The notes under the pieces are model-generated. The model was given only the letters and a program-made list of their open reading frames with translations, was not told where the DNA came from and did not search any database. From Helicobacteraceae bacterium (GTDB taxonomy: Bacteria; Campylobacterota; Campylobacteria; Campylobacterales; Sulfurimonadaceae), in contig WFNF01000021.1 of NCBI GenBank assembly GCA_015488775.1, forward strand, positions 1 through 50,015: a stretch of 50,015 bases of DNA. Reading direction: 5' to 3'. Positions 40,124 to 49,628 of this stretch are shown in pieces (position 1 is the first letter of the stretch; each line of letters begins with the position of its first letter). The position numbers and the translations under genes were made by a program.

Positions 40124-41074
40124 TTGCAACAACTTACAGATTTAAAAGCAATTTTACACTCTAAGCGTGCTAATATCTATTATTTAGAGTATTGTCGTGT
40201 GATGCAAAAAGATGGACGAGTCCTTTACTTGAGCGAAGCTAAAAAAGAGTACCAATACTGGAACATACCTATAGCAAATACTACTTGTTTGCTTTTGGGC
40301 ACTGGCACATCCATTACTCAAGCTGCTATGAGAATGTTAGCAAGTGCTGGTGTTCTTGTAGGTTTTAGTGGAAGTGGTAGCACACCGCTAATCTCGGGTA
40401 CTCAGATAGAGTGGTTAACCCCACAAAGTGAATATAGACCAACAGAGTATATTCAAGGTTGGATGAGCTTTTGGTTTGATGATATGAAAAGACTTGAGGT
40501 TGCAAAACGCTTTCAAGTTACTCGAATAAATTTTATAAAAAAAGTTTACTCTAAAGATAGAGAACTAAAACTTGCAGGTTTTAACCTTGAAGATATAGAA
40601 CCGATGTTAGATAAAAGTATTGACTCTATATATAAAGCTCCTAGCGTTGGTAAACTTTTACAACTAGAAGCTGAACTTACCAAAAAACTTTACAAATACG
40701 CAGCAAAAACAACAAACCAAATAGGCTTTACAAGAGAGCATAATGCAGCTGATGATGCTAACGCTTTTCTAAATCATGGAAACTATCTTGCTTATGGTCT
40801 TGCCGCATCTACTTTGTGGGTGCTTGGCATACCTCATGGTTTTGCTGTAATACATGGAAAAACAAGAAGAGGTGCTTTAGTGTTTGACATAGCAGATCTG
40901 ATCAAAGATGCTCTTGTGTTACCTTGGGCTTTTGTGTGTGCATCTGAAAATATGGATGAAAAAGGTTTTAGGTCTCAATGTTTACAAAATTTTGTAGATT
41001 ACAAAGCACTTGATTTTATGTTTAATGAAGTAAAAGATGTAGCACTTTTTTACAAGCAGGAGCATAAAGTATGA
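40124..41074 (+). CDS. cas1: CRISPR-associated endonuclease Cas1, type I-F
   Basis: 316 residues, type I-F Cas1: LKAILHSKRANIYYLEYCRV, WNIPIANTTCLLLGTGTSIT and the metal-binding half with NHGNYLAYGLAASTLWVLGI and HGFAVIHGKTRRGALVFDIA (His and Asp ligands). It integrates new spacers with the Cas2 part of Cas2-3. The start is TTG, placed 5 nt after GAGGAG (40113-40118); an ATG at 40119 is in another frame and stops after eight codons. Ends in a 4-nt overlap with cas2-3. Confidence 0.97.
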   Translation: MQQLTDLKAILHSKRANIYYLEYCRVMQKDGRVLYLSEAKKEYQYWNIPIANTTCLLLGTGTSITQAAMRMLASAGVLVGFSGSGSTPLISGTQIEWLTPQSEYRPTEYIQGWMSFWFDDMKRLEVAKRFQVTRINFIKKVYSKDRELKLAGFNLEDIEPMLDKSIDSIYKAPSVGKLLQLEAELTKKLYKYAAKTTNQIGFTREHNAADDANAFLNHGNYLAYGLAASTLWVLGIPHGFAVIHGKTRRGALVFDIADLIKDALVLPWAFVCASENMDEKGFRSQCLQNFVDYKALDFMFNEVKDVALFYKQEHKV

Positions 41075-44000
41075 TGGTTACTTTTGTCTCACAATGTGAG
41101 AAAAATGCTTTAAAAAAAACAAGAAGAGTATTAGATGCTTTTGCAAACCGCATAGGTGACAACACTTGGCAAACAATTATTACTCAAGAGGGTTTAGATG
41201 CGGTAAAAAAACTGTTAAGAAAAACAGCATCAAAAAGTACAGCAGTCTCATGTCATTGGATAAGAACAAGAGCAAGAAGCGAGTTTATCTGGGTGGTTGG
41301 AAATAGAGATAAATTTAGTAGTGAGGGGTATGTGGCGGTGAATAGTACAAAGAAAAATTTATTAAAAGATTATAGTGAGAGTGATTGGAAATATCTACCT
41401 TTAATAAAATCGTTAGTAGCAGTTAGTGCATTATTTCATGACTGGGGTAAATCTAATGATTTTTTTCAAGATAAATTAACTAACAAAAAAATAACAAGTG
41501 ACCCAATCAGGCATGAATGGCTTTCATGTTTACTTTTGTATAGTTTTATAAAAGTATGTGAAAAAAAATCTAAACATTGGTTAGACTGCTTAATTGATAT
41601 TGACATTGATGAAAAAGATATAATAAAAAACGTAGATTTAGATGTAAAAAACCCATTTAGAGATTTATCAGAACTAGAACAAGTTATTTTTTGGTTGATA
41701 CTCTCTCATCATAAGCTACCTGCTGAATTTAAGACTAAAAAATTGTTAAATGATTTACAAGGTGTAGAAGCTAAAAGTATTAATGATGTAGTGAAATATA
41801 TAACTAAAAGTTGGGGATATGAAAACAAAAATAATGACAATAATAGGGATTTAGTTAAGTGCTTTACTTTTTCAAAGGGCTTACTTAGTAATTCTAATAG
41901 ATGGACAAAAGAGATTAAAAAGTGGTCATATAAATTAAAAAATGAATCTAAAGAGTTTGAAACAGTTCTTAACGACGGAAGTATACGAGTTATTTTACAT
42001 TATGCAAGACTTTCATTAATGTTAGGAGATTATGACTATTCATCGAAAGAAGCTGATTTGTCATGGGAAAATGCAACAGGACTATTTGCTAATACAGATT
42101 TTAAAACTAAAAAACTAAAACAAAGTTTAGATGAACATATTGTAGGTGTTGCAAAATCTGCTTTAAAAATTGCACATAGCTTAGTAAAACTTGAGCATGA
42201 AATGCCAATGGTTCATGATGTTAAAGGATTAAAAAAGTTAAGTCCAAAAAACTTTTCATGGCAAGATAAGGCAGTACAAAAATTAAAAAAACATTATAAA
42301 GCCAAAAGTGGTTTTTTTGCAGTTAACATGGCAAGTACAGGTTGTGGGAAAACATTTGCAAATGCAAAAATAATGCAGGCTACTTCTTCTGATAAAAAAT
42401 CATTGCGCTATGTTTTAGCTTTAGGATTACGAACATTAACTTTGCAAACGGGTGATGAGTATAGAAATAATATAGGATTAAACAATAGTGAGCTAGCTGT
42501 ACTTATTGGTTCAAAAGCAATATCTATATTACACAATACAAAAGATGTAGATATTGAAGAAAATATTTTTAGCCATACTGGTTCAGAATCTAGTGAATCC
42601 CTTTTTGATGAAGATATTGATTTTGAAGGAGATTTTTCTGAAAAAGGTTTAGATACAGTTTTAAAAAATAAGAAAGATAGACAATTTTTATATGCTCCAG
42701 TTTTAGCTTGTACAATAGATCATTTGATGGGTTCTGTAGAAACTAAACGAGGAGGTAAATATATTTTGCCTTCATTGCGACTTAGTTCATCAGACTTGGT
42801 TATTGATGAGATTGATGATTTTAGTGGTTCTGATAGTATTGCTATTGGAAGATTAATTTATTTAGCAGGACTTCTTGGTAGGAAAGTTATGATCTCTTCT
42901 GCTACTATACCACCTGATTTGGCTGAAGGATATTTTAATGTTTATAAAAAAGGATGGAACCTTTTTTCAAAAACAAGAGAGGTTAATAATAATATTTATA
43001 CTTCAATAATTGATGAATTTACAACTACAGTGGAAAATTTTGATAGTAATTGTGATATTGAATTGTATAAAAATTTTCATAAAGTATTTGTAGAAAAGCG
43101 TGTTAATTCACTAGCAAAGCAAGATGTAAAAAGAAAGGCAGATATCTTTGAATGTAAAACTAATATGGATGATTGTGAGTTTGAAGAAGACGACATAAAA
43201 ACCAATAGTTATTTTGAACATATTAAAGAAGCAGTTTTACAAAAACATAGTGATCACTATAGTGTAGATAATAAAAGCACAAAAAAAGTATCTTTTGGTG
43301 TGGTTAGAGTTGCTAACATTGAACCATGTATCTCATTGAGTATATATCTGCAGAATGTTGAGCTAGATGAAGATACTGAATTTAGAGTTATGAGTTATCA
43401 TTCACGACAAATATTATTACTCAGACATATTCAAGAAGAACATTTAGATGCTGTACTAAAAAGAAAAGAGAAAGATGGTGAAGAAATCAATGCTTTTAAA
43501 AATAATATTATTCGTAGCCATTTAGATAATACAAAAGCTAAAAATATTATTTTTATTTTGGTCGCCACTCCAGTTGAAGAGGTTGGACGAGATCATGATT
43601 TTGATTGGGCAGTGATAGAACCTTCTTCATATAGATCCTTAATTCAACTAGCAGGTCGTGTTCGACGTCATAGAGAAGGAAATATTGAAAAACCAAATAT
43701 ATCTGTTATGCAGTATAACTATAAAGCATTTAAAGCCTGTGATGAAGATGGAAAATATTTTATAAAGCCAGGCTATGAAGAGATGTTACAGCTTAATACT
43801 CACGATTTAAAAGAGTTACTAGATGAAGAAAAATTATTAAACTCACTTGATGCTACATTAAGAATTCAAAAGCCCCAATCTTTAGATGAATATAACTCTT
43901 TAAGTGATTTGGAACATTACGTTATACAAGAAGATTTAACTACATATTCTCAAGTTGGTGCAGATAGCATGCAAGGATTTATAAATGAAGCTTGGTACTT

Positions 44001-44343
44001 AAGTGCACATCCTCAAATATTTCATAAATTTAGAGATTCACCTGAAAGTACACAAATATTTTTTCTTTATGATGACAAATCTGATGAAATTTATATTGGA
44101 GAAAAAGATGATTGTGGCGAATTTATAAATAGAGAGGGTATATATGAAATTGAAATATACTGTGATGAAAATATAACATCATTGTGGTTGCCAAGAGATT
44201 ATAAGTCGGCACTAAAAGTTTACTCCAATTTACATAGTAAAAGTATAGTAGATGTTTCTAAACTCTTTGGTGAATTGAATTTTATGTATCAAGATGGCGC
44301 TGAATATCGATACAGTGATCAAACTGGATTGGTAAAAATATAA
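41071..44343 (+). CDS. cas3: Cas2-Cas3 fusion nuclease/helicase, type I-F
   Basis: 1090 residues. Cas2-like N-terminus (about 1-95), HD nuclease domain with HD at 123-124 (LFHDWGKSNDFFQDKL), then a superfamily 2 helicase: Walker A ASTGCGKTF near residue 425, DExD-type LVIDEIDDF near 576, SAT motif as MISSATIP, and motif VI LAGRVRRHR. It degrades DNA marked by the Csy complex and, through the Cas2 part, joins Cas1 in spacer uptake. No truncation: all catalytic motifs are present. Start overlaps the cas1 stop (ATGATG); the second ATG at 41074 is also possible. Confidence 0.96.
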   Translation: MMVTFVSQCEKNALKKTRRVLDAFANRIGDNTWQTIITQEGLDAVKKLLRKTASKSTAVSCHWIRTRARSEFIWVVGNRDKFSSEGYVAVNSTKKNLLKDYSESDWKYLPLIKSLVAVSALFHDWGKSNDFFQDKLTNKKITSDPIRHEWLSCLLLYSFIKVCEKKSKHWLDCLIDIDIDEKDIIKNVDLDVKNPFRDLSELEQVIFWLILSHHKLPAEFKTKKLLNDLQGVEAKSINDVVKYITKSWGYENKNNDNNRDLVKCFTFSKGLLSNSNRWTKEIKKWSYKLKNESKEFETVLNDGSIRVILHYARLSLMLGDYDYSSKEADLSWENATGLFANTDFKTKKLKQSLDEHIVGVAKSALKIAHSLVKLEHEMPMVHDVKGLKKLSPKNFSWQDKAVQKLKKHYKAKSGFFAVNMASTGCGKTFANAKIMQATSSDKKSLRYVLALGLRTLTLQTGDEYRNNIGLNNSELAVLIGSKAISILHNTKDVDIEENIFSHTGSESSESLFDEDIDFEGDFSEKGLDTVLKNKKDRQFLYAPVLACTIDHLMGSVETKRGGKYILPSLRLSSSDLVIDEIDDFSGSDSIAIGRLIYLAGLLGRKVMISSATIPPDLAEGYFNVYKKGWNLFSKTREVNNNIYTSIIDEFTTTVENFDSNCDIELYKNFHKVFVEKRVNSLAKQDVKRKADIFECKTNMDDCEFEEDDIKTNSYFEHIKEAVLQKHSDHYSVDNKSTKKVSFGVVRVANIEPCISLSIYLQNVELDEDTEFRVMSYHSRQILLLRHIQEEHLDAVLKRKEKDGEEINAFKNNIIRSHLDNTKAKNIIFILVATPVEEVGRDHDFDWAVIEPSSYRSLIQLAGRVRRHREGNIEKPNISVMQYNYKAFKACDEDGKYFIKPGYEEMLQLNTHDLKELLDEEKLLNSLDATLRIQKPQSLDEYNSLSDLEHYVIQEDLTTYSQVGADSMQGFINEAWYLSAHPQIFHKFRDSPESTQIFFLYDDKSDEIYIGEKDDCGEFINREGIYEIEIYCDENITSLWLPRDYKSALKVYSNLHSKSIVDVSKLFGELNFMYQDGAEYRYSDQTGLVKI

Positions 44344-44354
44344 ATGAATTTAGG

Positions 44355-44360
44355 TATTAT
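44355..44360 (+). promoter_or_regulatory. Possible weak -10 for the mini-array
   Basis: TATTAT, 14 nt before the first degenerate repeat, in a T-rich stretch after the cas2-3 stop. The nearest -35-like TTGGTA (44329-44334) is 20 nt away, too far. Read-through from cas2-3 is an equal alternative. Confidence 0.25.
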
Positions 44361-44373
44361 TTCATACGCACTT

Positions 44374-44401
44374 TATATATACCGTACAGGTAGCTTAGAA
44401 A
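44374..44401 (+). repeat. Degenerate CRISPR repeat 1 of the mini-array
   Basis: Positions 7-28 match the array repeat except C12 to T (TACCGTACAGGTAGCTTAGA continues to AAA); most of the first six bases are lost. The closing C6-G20 pair of the Cas6f stem becomes A-G, leaving a 4-bp stem, so cutting here may be slow. The 3' 8-nt handle (44394-44401) is perfect. Confidence 0.9.
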
Positions 44402-44421
44402 AATGTATTAAAGTGTATCAT

Positions 44422-44449
44422 ATTTACTACCGCACAGGTAGTTTAATAA
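44422..44449 (+). repeat. Degenerate CRISPR repeat 2 of the mini-array
   Basis: The stem-loop CTACCGCACAGGTAG (44427-44441) is identical to the array repeat. The 3' part reads TTTAATAA instead of CTTAGAAA, and the first bases also differ. The part needed for the 3' end of a crRNA is kept and the part that would be the handle of a next crRNA is worn. Confidence 0.9.
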
Positions 44450-44454
44450 TTTAC

Positions 44455-44483
44455 TTGACTTTAAAATAATAAAAGAGTATTAT
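44455..44483 (+). promoter_or_regulatory. Predicted sigma70 promoter of the csy operon
   Basis: TTGACT at 44455-44460 and TATTAT at 44478-44483 are separated by 17 nt, the best spacing. Each box is one base from consensus. The predicted start point is near 44490, about 90 nt before the csy1 ATG. The -35 box begins 5 nt after the second degenerate repeat. Confidence 0.75.
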
Positions 44484-44488
44484 TTTAT

Positions 44489-44510
44489 CCAATGTATTAA
44501 AATGTTTAAT
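44489..44510 (+). promoter_or_regulatory. PAM and protospacer-like target of the mini-array guide
   Basis: CC at 44489-44490 is the I-F PAM on the correct, 5', side. Bases 44491-44510 match the 20-nt pseudo-spacer except at positions 12, 16 and 18. Positions 12 and 18 belong to the every-sixth bases not paired in Cascade-type complexes. The next three bases (ATT) also match the sequence after the guide. The site covers the predicted transcription start, so bound complex would block polymerase. Confidence 0.75.
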
Positions 44511-44532
44511 ATTGCACAAATAGCTTAATTAA
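44511..44532 (+). repeat. Worn third repeat copy after the target
   Basis: ATTGCACAAATAGCTTAATT aligns with the GCACA-GG-TAGCTTA portion of the array repeat, with GG changed to AA and the left stem arm missing. Together with 44491-44510 it looks like a second, decayed copy of the pseudo-spacer plus repeat unit. Confidence 0.55.
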
Positions 44533-44580: not shown

Positions 44581-45825
44581 ATGAATCAAACGGCGTTATC
44601 CAACTTTTTTAAAGATAGAAAAGAGGCATGGATAAAAAAGAACTTGAAAACTTCTATGAATGAAGATGAAGTTTTTGAGTTGAAACTTAAGTGTGAAAAA
44701 CTTTTTTCACTACAAGAGTGGTTACCAAATGCTTCATCTCGTGCAAAACAGATTTCTATGGCTACCCATCCGTGTACATTTTCACATCCATCTTCTAGAA
44801 AAAATAAAAATGGATATGTAAATCCAATTATTTTTCAGGCTAAAAAAAGAGAAGATGGATATTTGCATAGTGGTAATGTAGATGTTAAAGTGGATGCCTT
44901 AGGTAATGCAGCAGCATTAGATGTATATAAGTTTTTGACACTTAAAATGGATGATGGTTTAGAATTAATTGAACATATTAAACAAGATTCTAATATAGCT
45001 AAAGAACTATTGTCAATTAAAAATATATCATATACTGAGCTTAAAAAAGGCTTTTTAGAGATGATTGAAGAGTCTACTGATAGTGTCACAAGTTTGCGAA
45101 TCAAGCAGGTGTACTTTCCATTAGAAAATGAATACCATTTACTTTCTATACTAACAAATTCTGGAATTATGTATCACCTCAGACATAAACTTGATGAGAT
45201 GAGATTTTCAGATGAAGTAAAAGATTTAAGAGATAAAAAAAAGAAAAAAGAGTATTCTGATGATAGTTTTATAGAGATATACAACTTAACAACTATTGGT
45301 TATGGTGGAACTAAACCTCAAAATATTAGTGTATTGAATAATCAAAATGGAGGTAAAGCACATTTACTACATTCTATGCCTCCTTTAATTAATAAAAGAG
45401 ATATTTATTTCCCCAAGAAGAATTTTTTTACAGATTCTTTACGCTTATGGGATTTTAAAGAGAGCTTTCTTGCTTTGGATAGTATTATAAAAACAGATTA
45501 TAATAATAAAAATATTCGTGAGGGTAGGGAGTATAGATATGAAGAGATAATTGAAAAAATTATTTATAAAATGTATTTAATTAGAGAGGTTGCGGATGAA
45601 CAATACTATGAAAAAACTTCTATGTTGAAAGCTCATCAAAAAATTTGGTTATTAGATAGTGAAAAGCGAATAGATAGTGATGAATGGTTGGATAAACTTT
45701 TAAAAGAAACTACCTCTTGGTTTGTAAGGTCATTTGAAAAAAGTATAGGTAAGAAAGTGTATAACAAGTCTGAAATAGATAACTTTAAAGATATTTTGGA
45801 AAAAAATAAAGAGGCATTTAGATGA
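44581..45825 (+). CDS. csy1: Type I-F large subunit Csy1 (Cas8f)
   Basis: 414 residues, length normal for Cas8f. Typical segments are WLPNASSRAKQISMATHPCT, HPSSRKNKNGYVNPI and GGTKPQNISVLNNQNGGKAH near the middle. In the Csy complex it pairs with Cas5f at the crRNA 5' end and reads the CC PAM. A very strong GGAGG lies 6-11 nt before the ATG. The transcript begins at the promoter at 44455-44483. Ends in a 4-nt overlap with csy2. Confidence 0.95.
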   Translation: MNQTALSNFFKDRKEAWIKKNLKTSMNEDEVFELKLKCEKLFSLQEWLPNASSRAKQISMATHPCTFSHPSSRKNKNGYVNPIIFQAKKREDGYLHSGNVDVKVDALGNAAALDVYKFLTLKMDDGLELIEHIKQDSNIAKELLSIKNISYTELKKGFLEMIEESTDSVTSLRIKQVYFPLENEYHLLSILTNSGIMYHLRHKLDEMRFSDEVKDLRDKKKKKEYSDDSFIEIYNLTTIGYGGTKPQNISVLNNQNGGKAHLLHSMPPLINKRDIYFPKKNFFTDSLRLWDFKESFLALDSIIKTDYNNKNIREGREYRYEEIIEKIIYKMYLIREVADEQYYEKTSMLKAHQKIWLLDSEKRIDSDEWLDKLLKETTSWFVRSFEKSIGKKVYNKSEIDNFKDILEKNKEAFR

Positions 45826-46706
45826 GTAATTCTATAAAAAAACTTATTGTATTGCCACATATAAAAGTTCAAAATGCAAACGCGTTGTCAAGCCCTTTTA
45901 CTATTGGTATTCCAGCTTTAACGGCTTTTTTAGGTGCTACTCATAATTTGCAAAGGCTTTTAAATCAGAGTGGCTTTAATGATTTTATTGTACATTCTAC
46001 TGGTATAGTTGTTCATTCTGCTGATTTACAAACTCATAAGGGTTCAGGTGATTTCGTACACTCAATAATAGGTACAGGTAATCCTTTGGATAAAGATGGA
46101 AAACGTTCAGCTTTTATAGAGGAAGCAAGAATTCATTTAGATGTTTCACTTGTTCTTGAATATAGTGGAATAGCTAGAGATGAAAAAGAGATAGTTTTAG
46201 AAAAGATTTCTCAAAAACTTTATAAAATGCGTTTGGCTGGTGGAGATATAATGGGTTTTAGAGAGCCAACCTATGCTACTGTTAAAAAAGGTAGTGATGA
46301 TATGAAGTTTTTGTGTAAAAAACTTATGCCTGGATTTGTACTTGTAGAGCGACGAGAATTGATGTTGGAGATGATGAGTAAGGGTCAAGATGCAATAGAA
46401 TCCTTAATTCATTATCTTGGAGTACATAATAGTTGTGAATCTAATGAAGAGGGTGTGATTTGGCATCAAAAAAGAGCAACTTCTGGATGGATTGTACCTT
46501 TAGCTGTAGGGTTTCAAGGTATTAGTGATATTGGTTTTGCAAAAAATCAAAGAGATGAAGATACTCCACATCGGTATGCTGAGAGTATAGTTACTTTGGG
46601 TGAGTTTAAAATGGCATACAAAATTACATCTTTAGATGAGATGTTATGGGTCTATAGATTTGATAAAGAAAATGCTCTTTATCAATGTACACAACAAAAA
46701 TTATAA
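45822..46706 (+). CDS. csy2: Type I-F Csy2 (Cas5f)
   Basis: 294 residues, RAMP-fold Cas5f. Recognised by KLIVLPHIKVQNANALSSPF at the start, the following FTIGIPALTAFLGATHNLQR and IVHSADLQTHKGSGDFVH. It caps the 5' handle of the crRNA with Csy1. ATGA overlap with csy1 and 10-nt gap to the csy3 start. Confidence 0.95.
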   Translation: MSNSIKKLIVLPHIKVQNANALSSPFTIGIPALTAFLGATHNLQRLLNQSGFNDFIVHSTGIVVHSADLQTHKGSGDFVHSIIGTGNPLDKDGKRSAFIEEARIHLDVSLVLEYSGIARDEKEIVLEKISQKLYKMRLAGGDIMGFREPTYATVKKGSDDMKFLCKKLMPGFVLVERRELMLEMMSKGQDAIESLIHYLGVHNSCESNEEGVIWHQKRATSGWIVPLAVGFQGISDIGFAKNQRDEDTPHRYAESIVTLGEFKMAYKITSLDEMLWVYRFDKENALYQCTQQKL

Positions 46707-46716
46707 GGAAAATAAA

Positions 46717-47721
46717 ATGGCAAAAATTAAAGTAGCATCTGTGTTAAGTTTTGAAAAGAAATTGGTTCCATCTGATGGATATATGTATGGTACATCTTGG
46801 GATAATCGTAGTAAATGTACTCCTTTACATCTAATAGAAAAATCTGTACGTGGTACAATTTCAAATCGCTTAAAACCAGCGATTAAAAATGATCCTTTAA
46901 AGTTAAATGCTGAGGTGGAAAAAGCAAACCTGCAAACTGTAGACTTCTGTTCTCTTTCTCCTGAACAAGATACTCTGAAATTAAGTTTTAGTTTAAAAAT
47001 TTTAGGTTCTGTTGCACCTTCAGCTTGTAATAGTTCAGAATTCAAAAAAAGCTTACATATTGCATCAAAAAAATATATAAAAAATAATGGTTTTACTGAA
47101 CTTGCTAAAAGGTATGCTTTAAATATTGCAAATGCAAGATTTTTATGGAGAAATAGGGTGGGTGCAGAGAATATTGAGGTGCATGTAAAGTTTAATGATA
47201 CATCGTTGACCTTTGATGCTTTAAAATTTAATACTAAGTCTATGGAGTGTGAAGACAAAGATCTACTTTCTTTAGGTGAAAAAATTGCAGCAACCTTAGC
47301 AAGTGAAGATGATTTTTTATTGTTAGACATAGAATGTTTTGCTAAGATTGGCAAGGCTCAAGTAGTTTATCCAAGCGAAGAACTAGTTTTGGATAAAGGT
47401 AAAGCACAAAAAAGTAAAATCCTTTATTCAGTAAATAATATTTCAGCTATGCATGAACAAAAAATTGGTAATGCTTTAAGAAGTATTGATACTTGGTATA
47501 AAGCTTATGATACAGATGATAGTGCTGGTGCTATTGCCGTTGAACCTTATGGTGCAGTTACAAATTTAGGTATAGCATACAGGACGCCCAAAGATAAACA
47601 AGATTTTTTTACACTATTTGATAAATTTGCAACTGGTGAAAATCTTGAGAGAATTGAAGACGAGCATTATGTTATGGCAGTACTAATTCGTGGTGGTGTA
47701 TTTGGCGAAAGTGCAAAGTAA
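46717..47721 (+). CDS. csy3: Type I-F backbone Csy3 (Cas7f)
   Basis: 334 residues from the ATG at 46717, which has AAGGAA at 46705-46710. A longer frame from 46636 would overlap csy2 by 71 nt and has no ribosome site. Cas7f marks: KVASVLSFEKKLVPSDGYMY, GTSWDNRSKCTPLHLIEKSV, and LRSIDTWY near the end. Copies of it line the crRNA spacer, one per six bases; a 20-nt guide would therefore hold about two fewer than a 32-nt one. Confidence 0.95.
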   Translation: MAKIKVASVLSFEKKLVPSDGYMYGTSWDNRSKCTPLHLIEKSVRGTISNRLKPAIKNDPLKLNAEVEKANLQTVDFCSLSPEQDTLKLSFSLKILGSVAPSACNSSEFKKSLHIASKKYIKNNGFTELAKRYALNIANARFLWRNRVGAENIEVHVKFNDTSLTFDALKFNTKSMECEDKDLLSLGEKIAATLASEDDFLLLDIECFAKIGKAQVVYPSEELVLDKGKAQKSKILYSVNNISAMHEQKIGNALRSIDTWYKAYDTDDSAGAIAVEPYGAVTNLGIAYRTPKDKQDFFTLFDKFATGENLERIEDEHYVMAVLIRGGVFGESAK

Positions 47722-47727
47722 ATAATA

Positions 47728-48291
47728 ATGAAATACTATATAGATATTAAACTCCTAAATGAAGGTGAAATTAGTTTAGGATTTTTATGGAAAAAAGTTT
47801 ATGCGCAAATTCATCTAGCTTTAGTTGAAATAAATAATGAGAGTATAGCACTCTCTTTTCCAAATTATGGTACAAAAATTTTTCCTATGGGTGAGTGTTT
47901 AAGGATATTTGCTAACGATAAAGAAGATTTGATAGATTTAAAATTAGATACTTGGTTAGAACGTCTAAAAGATTATCTTTGTATGGGTGAAATTTTGGCA
48001 ATACCAAAAACAGATAAATTTGTACAATTTAAACGAAGACAGTTTAAAGCAAATTTATTGAAAAGAGCAGAGAAACAAGCATTAAGACGAGGAATAAGTG
48101 TTGCTGATGCATTAAAACACTATGAAGGTATGGAAGATAAAAGTTCTAAACTTCCATTTATTATGGTAAAAAGTTTATCTTCTGATCAAGAGTTGAAACT
48201 ATTTATAGAAAAAATAGATTTTGATAGTGAAGTTGAGGGTACTTTTAATACTTATGGCTTAAGCAAAACAGCAACAGTGCCTTGGTTTTAG
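47728..48291 (+). CDS. cas6f: crRNA-processing endoribonuclease Cas6f (Csy4)
   Basis: 187 residues. The catalytic His29 is in its usual place (VYAQIHLALVEI), the RNA-binding Arg-rich helix follows (KANLLKRAEKQALRRG) and the C-terminus YGLSKTATVPWF is diagnostic for the family. It cuts the repeat after the stem-loop and stays bound to the hairpin. Six nt separate it from csy3. Its stop codon is the first three bases of the palindrome at 48289. Confidence 0.96.
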   Translation: MKYYIDIKLLNEGEISLGFLWKKVYAQIHLALVEINNESIALSFPNYGTKIFPMGECLRIFANDKEDLIDLKLDTWLERLKDYLCMGEILAIPKTDKFVQFKRRQFKANLLKRAEKQALRRGISVADALKHYEGMEDKSSKLPFIMVKSLSSDQELKLFIEKIDFDSEVEGTFNTYGLSKTATVPWF

Positions 48292-48350: not shown

Positions 48351-49628
48351 ATGGAATCAATTCTATTAGAAGATAATCCTCATTGGGTAAATTCTGAAGC
48401 ATATACTGATTTTTCTAAAAGAGAGATTCTAGATAAAGCCCTTGCTTTTTTAAAACCTAAAGAGGTTTTAGCCCTTATTGGGGCTAGGCGTGTTGGTAAA
48501 AGTACCTTGGCAAAACTGATGATAAATGAACTTATAAAAAGTGGTGTTATGGCACAAAACATCTTTTTTATTAACCTAGAAAAGCCTTTTTTTATACCAT
48601 ATAAAAATGATGCTGCTTATCTTGAAAAGATATATATAGAATTTTTAAAACTTGCACAACCACAAGAGGATAAAAAGATATATTTTTTTATAGATGAGAT
48701 ACAAATCTTTCAAAATTGGGAAGTATTTATAAAGTCTAGATATGAAAACTCAAATATAAAGTTTGTTATAACAGGTTCTAACTCCTCACTTTTAACCTCA
48801 AATTATGCTACTTTGTTAACAGGAAGAGTTTTAAAACTTAGAGTTCATAGTTTTAGTTTTATAGAGTTCTTAATTTATAAAAATATAGATATATCATCAA
48901 ACATACAAGTTGTAAAAAACAGTATAACTATACAAAAGGCTCAAGATGAGTATATGAAGTGGGGAGGGTACTTTTCTGTTATATCTAATGACAATATAGA
49001 GATAAAAAAAGAGATTTTAAAAAACATAGCAGAAGATATTATACTTAAAGATATAGTCCCTTGTTACAACATAAAAAACTCCAAGATTATAAGAGATCTT
49101 TTTTACTATGTTGTATCTAACGCAACAAGCATACTCAACTACAGTTCATTAGCTAAAAAGTTGTCTTGTGATGCTAAGATGATTAAAGAGTATACTGGGT
49201 ATTTTGAAGATAATTTTTTGATTACATTAATCTCAAAAAAACATAACAAATTAAGTGAAACTATAAAATCTTCAAAAAAGATTTATCTAAATGATAATGG
49301 ATTTTTAAATTTAGGTATAAGTCCACAAAGAAACTTAGGCACTGCTTTAGAAAATATGGTTTTTACCTTTTTAAATGAAAATGGTGAAGATATATATTAT
49401 ATTAGAGATAACAAAGAGATAGACTTTATATATAAAAATAATCTGATTCAAGTCTCTTACAACATAGACAACGAAGATACAAAAAAAAGAGAACTAAGTG
49501 CATTAAAGTTTTATGAAAACACTAAATGTAAATCTCTACTTATAACAAAAGATACTGATCAGAAAGTAGATAATGTAGAGATTATTAGTTTTTACAAGTT
49601 TTCACTGCAAAAAAACCTTTATTTTTAA
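48351..49628 (+). CDS. AAA ATPase with DUF4143 domain
   Basis: 425 residues. P-loop ATPase domain at about 30-190: Walker A IGARRVGKSTL, Walker B IYFFIDEIQIF, sensor FVITGSNSSLL and the arginine-rich GRVLKLRVHSFSFIEF. The C-terminal DUF4143 half (about 200-425) has LENMVFTFLNENG and NKEIDFIYKNNLIQVSY, similar to the PD-(D/E)xK fold but with Gln in place of the catalytic Lys, so nuclease activity is doubtful. These proteins are common and poorly understood. Its place between cas6f and the array, in the same direction, is unusual; GGAG lies 6 nt before the ATG. Confidence 0.88.
   Translation: MESILLEDNPHWVNSEAYTDFSKREILDKALAFLKPKEVLALIGARRVGKSTLAKLMINELIKSGVMAQNIFFINLEKPFFIPYKNDAAYLEKIYIEFLKLAQPQEDKKIYFFIDEIQIFQNWEVFIKSRYENSNIKFVITGSNSSLLTSNYATLLTGRVLKLRVHSFSFIEFLIYKNIDISSNIQVVKNSITIQKAQDEYMKWGGYFSVISNDNIEIKKEILKNIAEDIILKDIVPCYNIKNSKIIRDLFYYVVSNATSILNYSSLAKKLSCDAKMIKEYTGYFEDNFLITLISKKHNKLSETIKSSKKIYLNDNGFLNLGISPQRNLGTALENMVFTFLNENGEDIYYIRDNKEIDFIYKNNLIQVSYNIDNEDTKKRELSALKFYENTKCKSLLITKDTDQKVDNVEIISFYKFSLQKNLYF

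Follow-up and report, generated by a model that had tools for sequence, protein, structure and literature searches.

Does the gap between cas2-3 and csy1 in this type I-F CRISPR-Cas locus encode a guide RNA with which the effector complex restrains its own operon? A preliminary description had proposed a CreR-like guide of this kind from the sequence of the window (the whole of the 50,015-nucleotide contig C21, from a 2.7-Mb draft genome bin of 170 contigs), and all of its coordinates and counts proved correct, base for base, on a direct recount. Named Sulfurimonas records occur among the family relatives of the window (L037, L041, L043 and L045), which points to a Sulfurimonas-like campylobacterotan as the probable host. 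The system is complete and clearly of type I-F, with Cas1f, Cas3f and Csy1-Csy4 all scoring above their NCBIfam cut-offs. Along the window lie cas1f (40124-41074), cas2-3 (cas2-3f; 41071..44343, plus strand, TIGR02562), csy1 (cas8f; 44581..45825, plus strand, TIGR02564), which is the first gene of the effector operon, and csy2, csy3 and cas6f (together 45822..48291, plus strand, recognised by their NCBIfam families). An AAA_14/DUF4143 protein (48351-49628) stands between cas6f and the canonical CRISPR array, which has five plus-strand repeats up to the contig end (49746..50013; repeat GTAAACTACCGCACAGGTAGCTTAGAAA, from 49746). This ATPase matches the PADLOC candidate defence family PDC-S01 (E 4e-97). 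The cas3-csy1 gap measures 237 bp and holds two degenerate repeats, a guide, a promoter, a CC protospacer-adjacent motif (PAM) and the guide's target.

The two degenerate repeats, psiR1 (44374..44401) and psiR2 (44422..44449), both on the plus strand, are each identical to the array repeat of this genome at 22/28 positions. Between them are just 20 nt, the pseudo-spacer recognised at the outset, which we call the guide (psiS, AATGTATTAAAGTGTATCAT, 44402..44421, plus strand). An ordinary CRISPR array, with identical repeats and spacers of about 32 nt, is a description that we rejected for these elements, as the repeats are degenerate and the spacer is only 20 nt long. The arrangement is that of CreR, a cas-linked mini-array of two repeat-like sequences. 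The two repeats have decayed in different places. In the 12 loci whose mini-array is read in the same direction as csy1 (sense loci), the 5’ handle, formed here by the last 8 nt of psiR1 (CTTAGAAA), is kept in psiR1 at 92/96 bases and the same part of psiR2 at only 47/96; the 5-bp Cas6f-type hairpin of psiR2, which would supply the 3’ handle, is intact in all 12, the window included. The same split has been reported for two-repeat creA genes, where the first repeat keeps the 5’ handle and the second the hairpin (PMC8501985).

The mature RNA of Acinetobacter I-F CreA has been sequenced and consists of 8 + 20 + 20 nt (PMC10097628), and by analogy we predict a 48-nt guide RNA of the same composition at 44394..44441 on the plus strand. 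Its own -10 element may be the TATTAT at 44355..44360 (plus strand), 13 nt 5’ of psiR1, which is a weak box found by eye; a TATAAT-like box 10-30 nt 5’ of psiR1 is seen in most sense loci, again weakly and by eye. Base pair 6-20 of the psiR1 stem in the window is A.G, and because of this mismatch at the stem base, Cas6f cleavage at psiR1 may be poor. The mini-array RNA as a whole folds no better than its shuffles (z -0.53).

The csy1 operon promoter is predicted at 44455..44483 (plus strand). Its sequence, TTGACT-17-TATTAT, is the best promoter-like site of the region, agreeing at 10/12 positions. The scan returned 5 sites in the region and 2.2 in shuffles, so the promoter alone is modest evidence. 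It faces csy1 directly, through a 90-nt leader with no terminator. A CC PAM (44489..44490, plus strand) precedes the target (AATGTATTAAAATGTTTAAT, 44491..44510, plus strand), which begins 7 nt after the -10 box and matches the guide at 17/20 positions, with mismatches at 12, 16 and 18. Direct alignment thus reproduces the partial match, the PAM on its proper side and the three mismatched positions first described, and the promoter stands where it was first placed. A guide that pairs only in part with a PAM-flanked site in its effector operon promoter is likewise a feature of CreR. In 1000 dinucleotide-shuffled versions of the gap, no CC-flanked match was as good (the mean best had 10.4 mismatches), and the csy1 promoter is the sole CC-flanked site for the guide at three mismatches or fewer in the whole 2.7-Mb draft genome. 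A look-alike of the guide in C12 has neither repeat nor CC and was rejected.

Relatives of the locus were gathered by Csy1 searches over the family, the order and neighbouring families, together with a scan of named genomes; a contig search with a single Csy1 protein found no relative, and a search with a Csy1 alignment did. We counted 51 loci with gaps below 100 bp (most of 10-25 bp) as lacking room for the cassette, and these lie outside the cassette scan. The long-gap Campylobacterota I-F loci number 12 that are independent (the window and eleven others), with guides that differ in sequence, and all 12 carry a handle, a guide and a CC-flanked target, so that the guide-target match is maintained in every one. 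With a cut-off of at most 2 mismatches in 15 for a clear guide-target pair, such a pair is present in 28 of the 34 long-gap I-F loci from all lineages sampled. I-F loci in which the cas3-csy1 gap is long therefore have a regulatory mini-array as a rule.

The comparison of related genomes for which the preliminary description had called reveals no independent drift of guide and target: they co-vary. In the sense loci, own pairs have 0-1 mismatches at the 15 pairing positions and swapped pairs a mean of 9.0. Individual substitutions tell the same story. The guides of L006 and L011 differ by A to T changes at positions 3 and 8, with matching changes in the target; between L012 and L020, positions 4 and 14 change, and again the target follows. 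The distance from the -10 box to the start of the target is 5-7 nt in five loci (the window and four relatives) from at least three families; in L014 and L022 the target lies 5’ of the likeliest csy1 promoter. Campylobacterota have the mini-array in sense with csy1, Gammaproteobacteria and some other lineages have it in antisense, and in the loci sampled the sense cassette is best described as the Campylobacterota variant. L063 is set apart from the other antisense loci by a minus-strand mini-array whose target is on the plus strand, and L068 is possibly arranged likewise (by eye). A small ORF of about 60 codons with a KYVKKET-like start lies between mini-array and csy1, 3’ of the target, in the antisense loci L079, L102 and L093 (by eye).

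Two further regularities concern the way in which the guide would be read. When the best match was sought with no PAM requirement, the bases preceding it were CC in 21/21 loci (12 sense, 9 antisense). Across the same 21 loci, mismatches fall at positions 6, 12 and 18 in 36/63 cases and at the other positions 1-17 in 13/315 (p = 1.5e-22). The sense loci alone give 20/36 and 7/180 (p 4.5e-13), and enrichment persists in the sense loci when the window is left out (p = 5.5e-12); these p-values are only indicative because the loci are related. Cascade-type complexes flip every sixth base of the guide out of the duplex, and the 6/12/18 pattern therefore reads as the fingerprint of a Csy-complex guide. 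This natural mismatch spectrum, free at 6, 12 and 18 and fixed at the other positions, lets base flipping by Cascade be read out from evolution. The first reading of the window named 12 and 18 as flipped-out bases; its third mismatch, at 16, is not a flipped-out base. Pairing at position 16 is required in Acinetobacter I-F CreA (PMC10097628), so binding in the window may be weaker. Anatomy, PAM, covariation, mismatch periodicity and conservation are all properties of the sequences themselves.

Taken together, these features make it probable (about 0.86, by our own estimate from sequence) that the mini-array at 44374-44449 is a CreR-type regulator and that the Csy complex carrying its guide represses the csy1 operon. 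The PAM, the geometry, the exact 5’ handle of psiR1 and the 6/12/18 mismatches all fit a guide that is bound by Csy at the csy1 promoter and does not lead to cutting. The proposal of a guide directed at its own csy promoter thus gains support from covariation, the CC PAM, the handle and the mismatch pattern. Expression, processing, binding, repression and de-repression are steps that we infer. A transcript would start just 5’ of psiR1, and cleavage by Cas6f would release from it a crRNA-like product, about 48 nt long, whose guide measures 20 nt. The guide-loaded Csy complex would then bind the CC-flanked site at the +1 of csy1 and block transcription of csy1-csy2-csy3-cas6f. Cutting by Cas3 should not follow, because the guide is short and its pairing imperfect. 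The result would be negative feedback on effector abundance that eases once ordinary crRNAs or anti-CRISPRs occupy the effector. In CreR systems, ordinary crRNAs compete with CreR and anti-CRISPRs relieve repression (PMC12737573). Two triggers of de-repression had been suggested for the window; relief by anti-CRISPRs agrees with this precedent, but relief by scarcity of crRNA does not, since competition with CreR leads one to expect relief when crRNAs are abundant (PMC12737573).

The csy1 leader contains a third repeat-derived element, which the preliminary description had overlooked. This hairpin, psiR3 (TATT-GCACA-AATA, about 44504..44531, plus strand), is identical to the array repeat at 18/28 positions and lies directly 3’ of the target, overlapping its end. 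A short repeat-derived hairpin 3’ of the target, 48-92 nt before csy1, is present in 10/10 sense loci with a direct csy1 leader. Its similarity to the repeats of its own locus is significant in 7/10 of these leaders (p <= 0.012; window p 0.012); the three non-significant hairpins and that of L003 were picked out by their shape, a source of bias in the hairpin count. On the coding strand, significant repeat similarity was found in the leader of 0/9 antisense loci. In an alignment of 11 sequences, four of the five stem pairs persist throughout, three of these four with compensatory changes, and about half have lost the closing pair 6-20; the all-A/U stem of the window is not predicted to form. 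We rejected a terminator role for psiR3, as the stem is short and A+T-rich and no U run follows. Duplication of a spacer-repeat unit likely gave rise to psiR3. It may also explain where the target came from, and because the spacing of target and repeat resembles that of guide and psiR2, it is the likely origin of their complementarity. It is tempting to guess that Cas6f binds the leader of the csy mRNA at this hairpin.

Such an origin raises the possibility that nothing here is functional, and that target and third repeat are an old duplication of a spacer-repeat unit in a decayed array. A degenerate repeat does follow the target at nearly the guide-psiR2 spacing. Decay in the absence of selection, however, would not cluster mismatches at 6, 12 and 18, would not be expected to preserve the match where guides differ by about 60%, and predicts the AA of a handle upstream of the target, where CC is found; we consider this explanation very improbable. 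The PAM has another reading as well, for a PAM-flanked match between a spacer and the chromosome is generally the start of autoimmunity, and the guide might be an immunity spacer taken accidentally from the csy1 promoter. A spacer of 20 nt and not 32, flanked by degenerate repeats, outside any array and in a layout common to 12 lineages leaves that idea with next to no credibility. A real guide could, alternatively, act mainly as a roadblock that stops transcription running on from cas1-cas2-3 into csy1 and contribute little to promoter control. The window has no terminator between the genes, and the upstream position of the target in L014 and L022 would suit a roadblock, but the start of the target 5-7 nt past the -10 box in the window and four relatives points to the promoter, and we think a principal roadblock role quite unlikely.

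The remaining rival is an addiction module of the CreTA type, in which the guide would repress a small toxic RNA encoded in the gap and control of csy1 would be secondary. Gap and guide format are indeed shared with Acinetobacter I-F CreTA, and two relatives have a PBECR3-like nuclease gene 3’ of target and mini-array. The window's promoter, in contrast, leads straight to csy1 through its 90-nt leader with no terminator; the leaders have no mini-ORF in common, L012 and L020 lacking an ATG there (by eye); and the Acinetobacter toxin is divergent from creA, whereas promoter, target and mini-array are co-directional here. No toxin gene lies under the targeted promoter in the window, which leaves narrow room for a small RNA toxin, and we hold the addiction module to be improbable. 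In the two relatives concerned, L013 (=L044) and L024 (=L058), the target is 5’ of psiR1 and an ORF of about 136 aa lies between mini-array and csy1. It resembles the PBECR3 nuclease (PF18812) just below the cut-off, has relatives in 17/175 genomes of that family, and is possibly a CRISPR-repressed protein toxin of the CrePA kind.

If autorepression of the csy operon is the correct reading, a phage might exploit it. Both the repeat search and the guide search led to C94 (L138), a contig of 4089 bp in the same genome bin, with a second copy of the guide that the preliminary description did not include. A TATAAT box (1155-1160, by eye) is followed there by a solitary repeat (1168-1195), 26/28 identical to the array repeat, and then by AATGTTTTAAACTGTATTAT. 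This sequence equals the CreR guide at 17/17 pairing positions, its sole differences being at 6, 12 and 18; of the 118,096 20-mers examined, none but the guide and the C94 copy reach 17/17. The contig encodes SSB, a ParA fragment, an Arc-like repressor, Rz-like proteins (weak hits) and DUF5675, and its lysis gene order resembles that of Sulfurimonas phage SNW-1, with DNA similarity for one gene; family hits that range from weak to good, together with the synteny of the lysis genes, suggest that C94 is a phage. Its 246-aa protein has no relative in the phage and viral collections and one weak match in the family. The contig is short and binned and contains no second repeat, and the 3’ half of its guide falls within a strong hairpin (an inverted repeat in region 1155-1240), possibly serving either strand as a terminator.

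We compared all csy1 gaps with the 305 guides found behind repeats in viral contigs, that of C94 among them. Besides C94 there was one good match, in L189, which we rejected as repeat matching repeat, and the rest equalled the shuffled null. When viral contigs were searched by pattern for guides of the L012/L020 and L006/L011 types, nothing emerged, or sites with no repeat upstream, and no other phage in the viral collection has such a guide for the csy1 loci compared. Viral contigs L166 (7781-7947) and L213 (1435-1505) contain I-F repeats spaced 48 nt apart, which makes them phage mini-arrays with spacers of 20 nt in place of 32 nt. The C94 copy suggests an RNA anti-CRISPR that would hijack the host circuit; if functional, it would be a counter-defence that silences CRISPR by over-using the host's own brake. 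A still broader picture, in which Campylobacterota I-F systems have two RNA-level feedbacks (the promoter guide and a Cas6f-recognisable csy1-leader hairpin) and a phage counterfeits the guide so that the Csy complex silences its own operon, is tentative, and we doubt it as a whole more than we believe it.

How much of this is new? Shmakov et al. are said to have reported in 2023 that mini-arrays with standalone repeats belong mostly to type I and V-A systems and often target cas8 promoters, that one I-F1 mini-array acts as a regulatory guide, and that some, found in phages, may inhibit effector expression. Ours are probably of the same class, and the antisense I-F loci of Gammaproteobacteria are likely what that work describes. 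Our literature search found no description of the system in this lineage. To that extent the original statement that the locus was undescribed holds in the literature searched; I-F mini-arrays as such are published. The principle is already published for types I-B, I-E and V-A, and a toxin version for I-F. Apparently new are the sense-oriented Campylobacterota cassette with its leader hairpin, the 6/12/18 covariation statistics and the phage copy of a host guide. Our comparative evidence, checkable from sequence, would add the type I-F systems of Campylobacterota to those with autorepressed CRISPR effectors.

CreR is known in types I-B, I-E and V-A (Liu et al. 2023, Cell Host Microbe, as cited in PMC13131331). 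Compared with CreR, the locus is alike in its two degenerate repeats, short partial guide and PAM-flanked target in the effector operon promoter, and differs in its type (I-F), its mini-array co-directional with csy1 and its extra leader hairpin. Acinetobacter I-F CreA, proven by mutagenesis, lies in the cas3-csy1 gap and has a 20-nt guide that matches at 17/20, with mismatches at 6, 11 and 18 and a CC PAM (PMC10097628). The window shares the gap, the guide length, the 17/20 match, the PAM and, as predicted, the 8 + 20 + 20 RNA; the Acinetobacter target, however, drives a divergent RNA toxin, and the window target drives csy1. The Racr RNA anti-CRISPRs of phages have the layout of a promoter followed by a solitary repeat (PMC10651486), and C94, with a single I-F repeat directly behind its promoter (the -10 having been found by eye), has that layout. 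Unlike Racr, the C94 repeat precedes the host's CreR guide, and it may guide repression beyond sequestering Cas6f and Cas7f.
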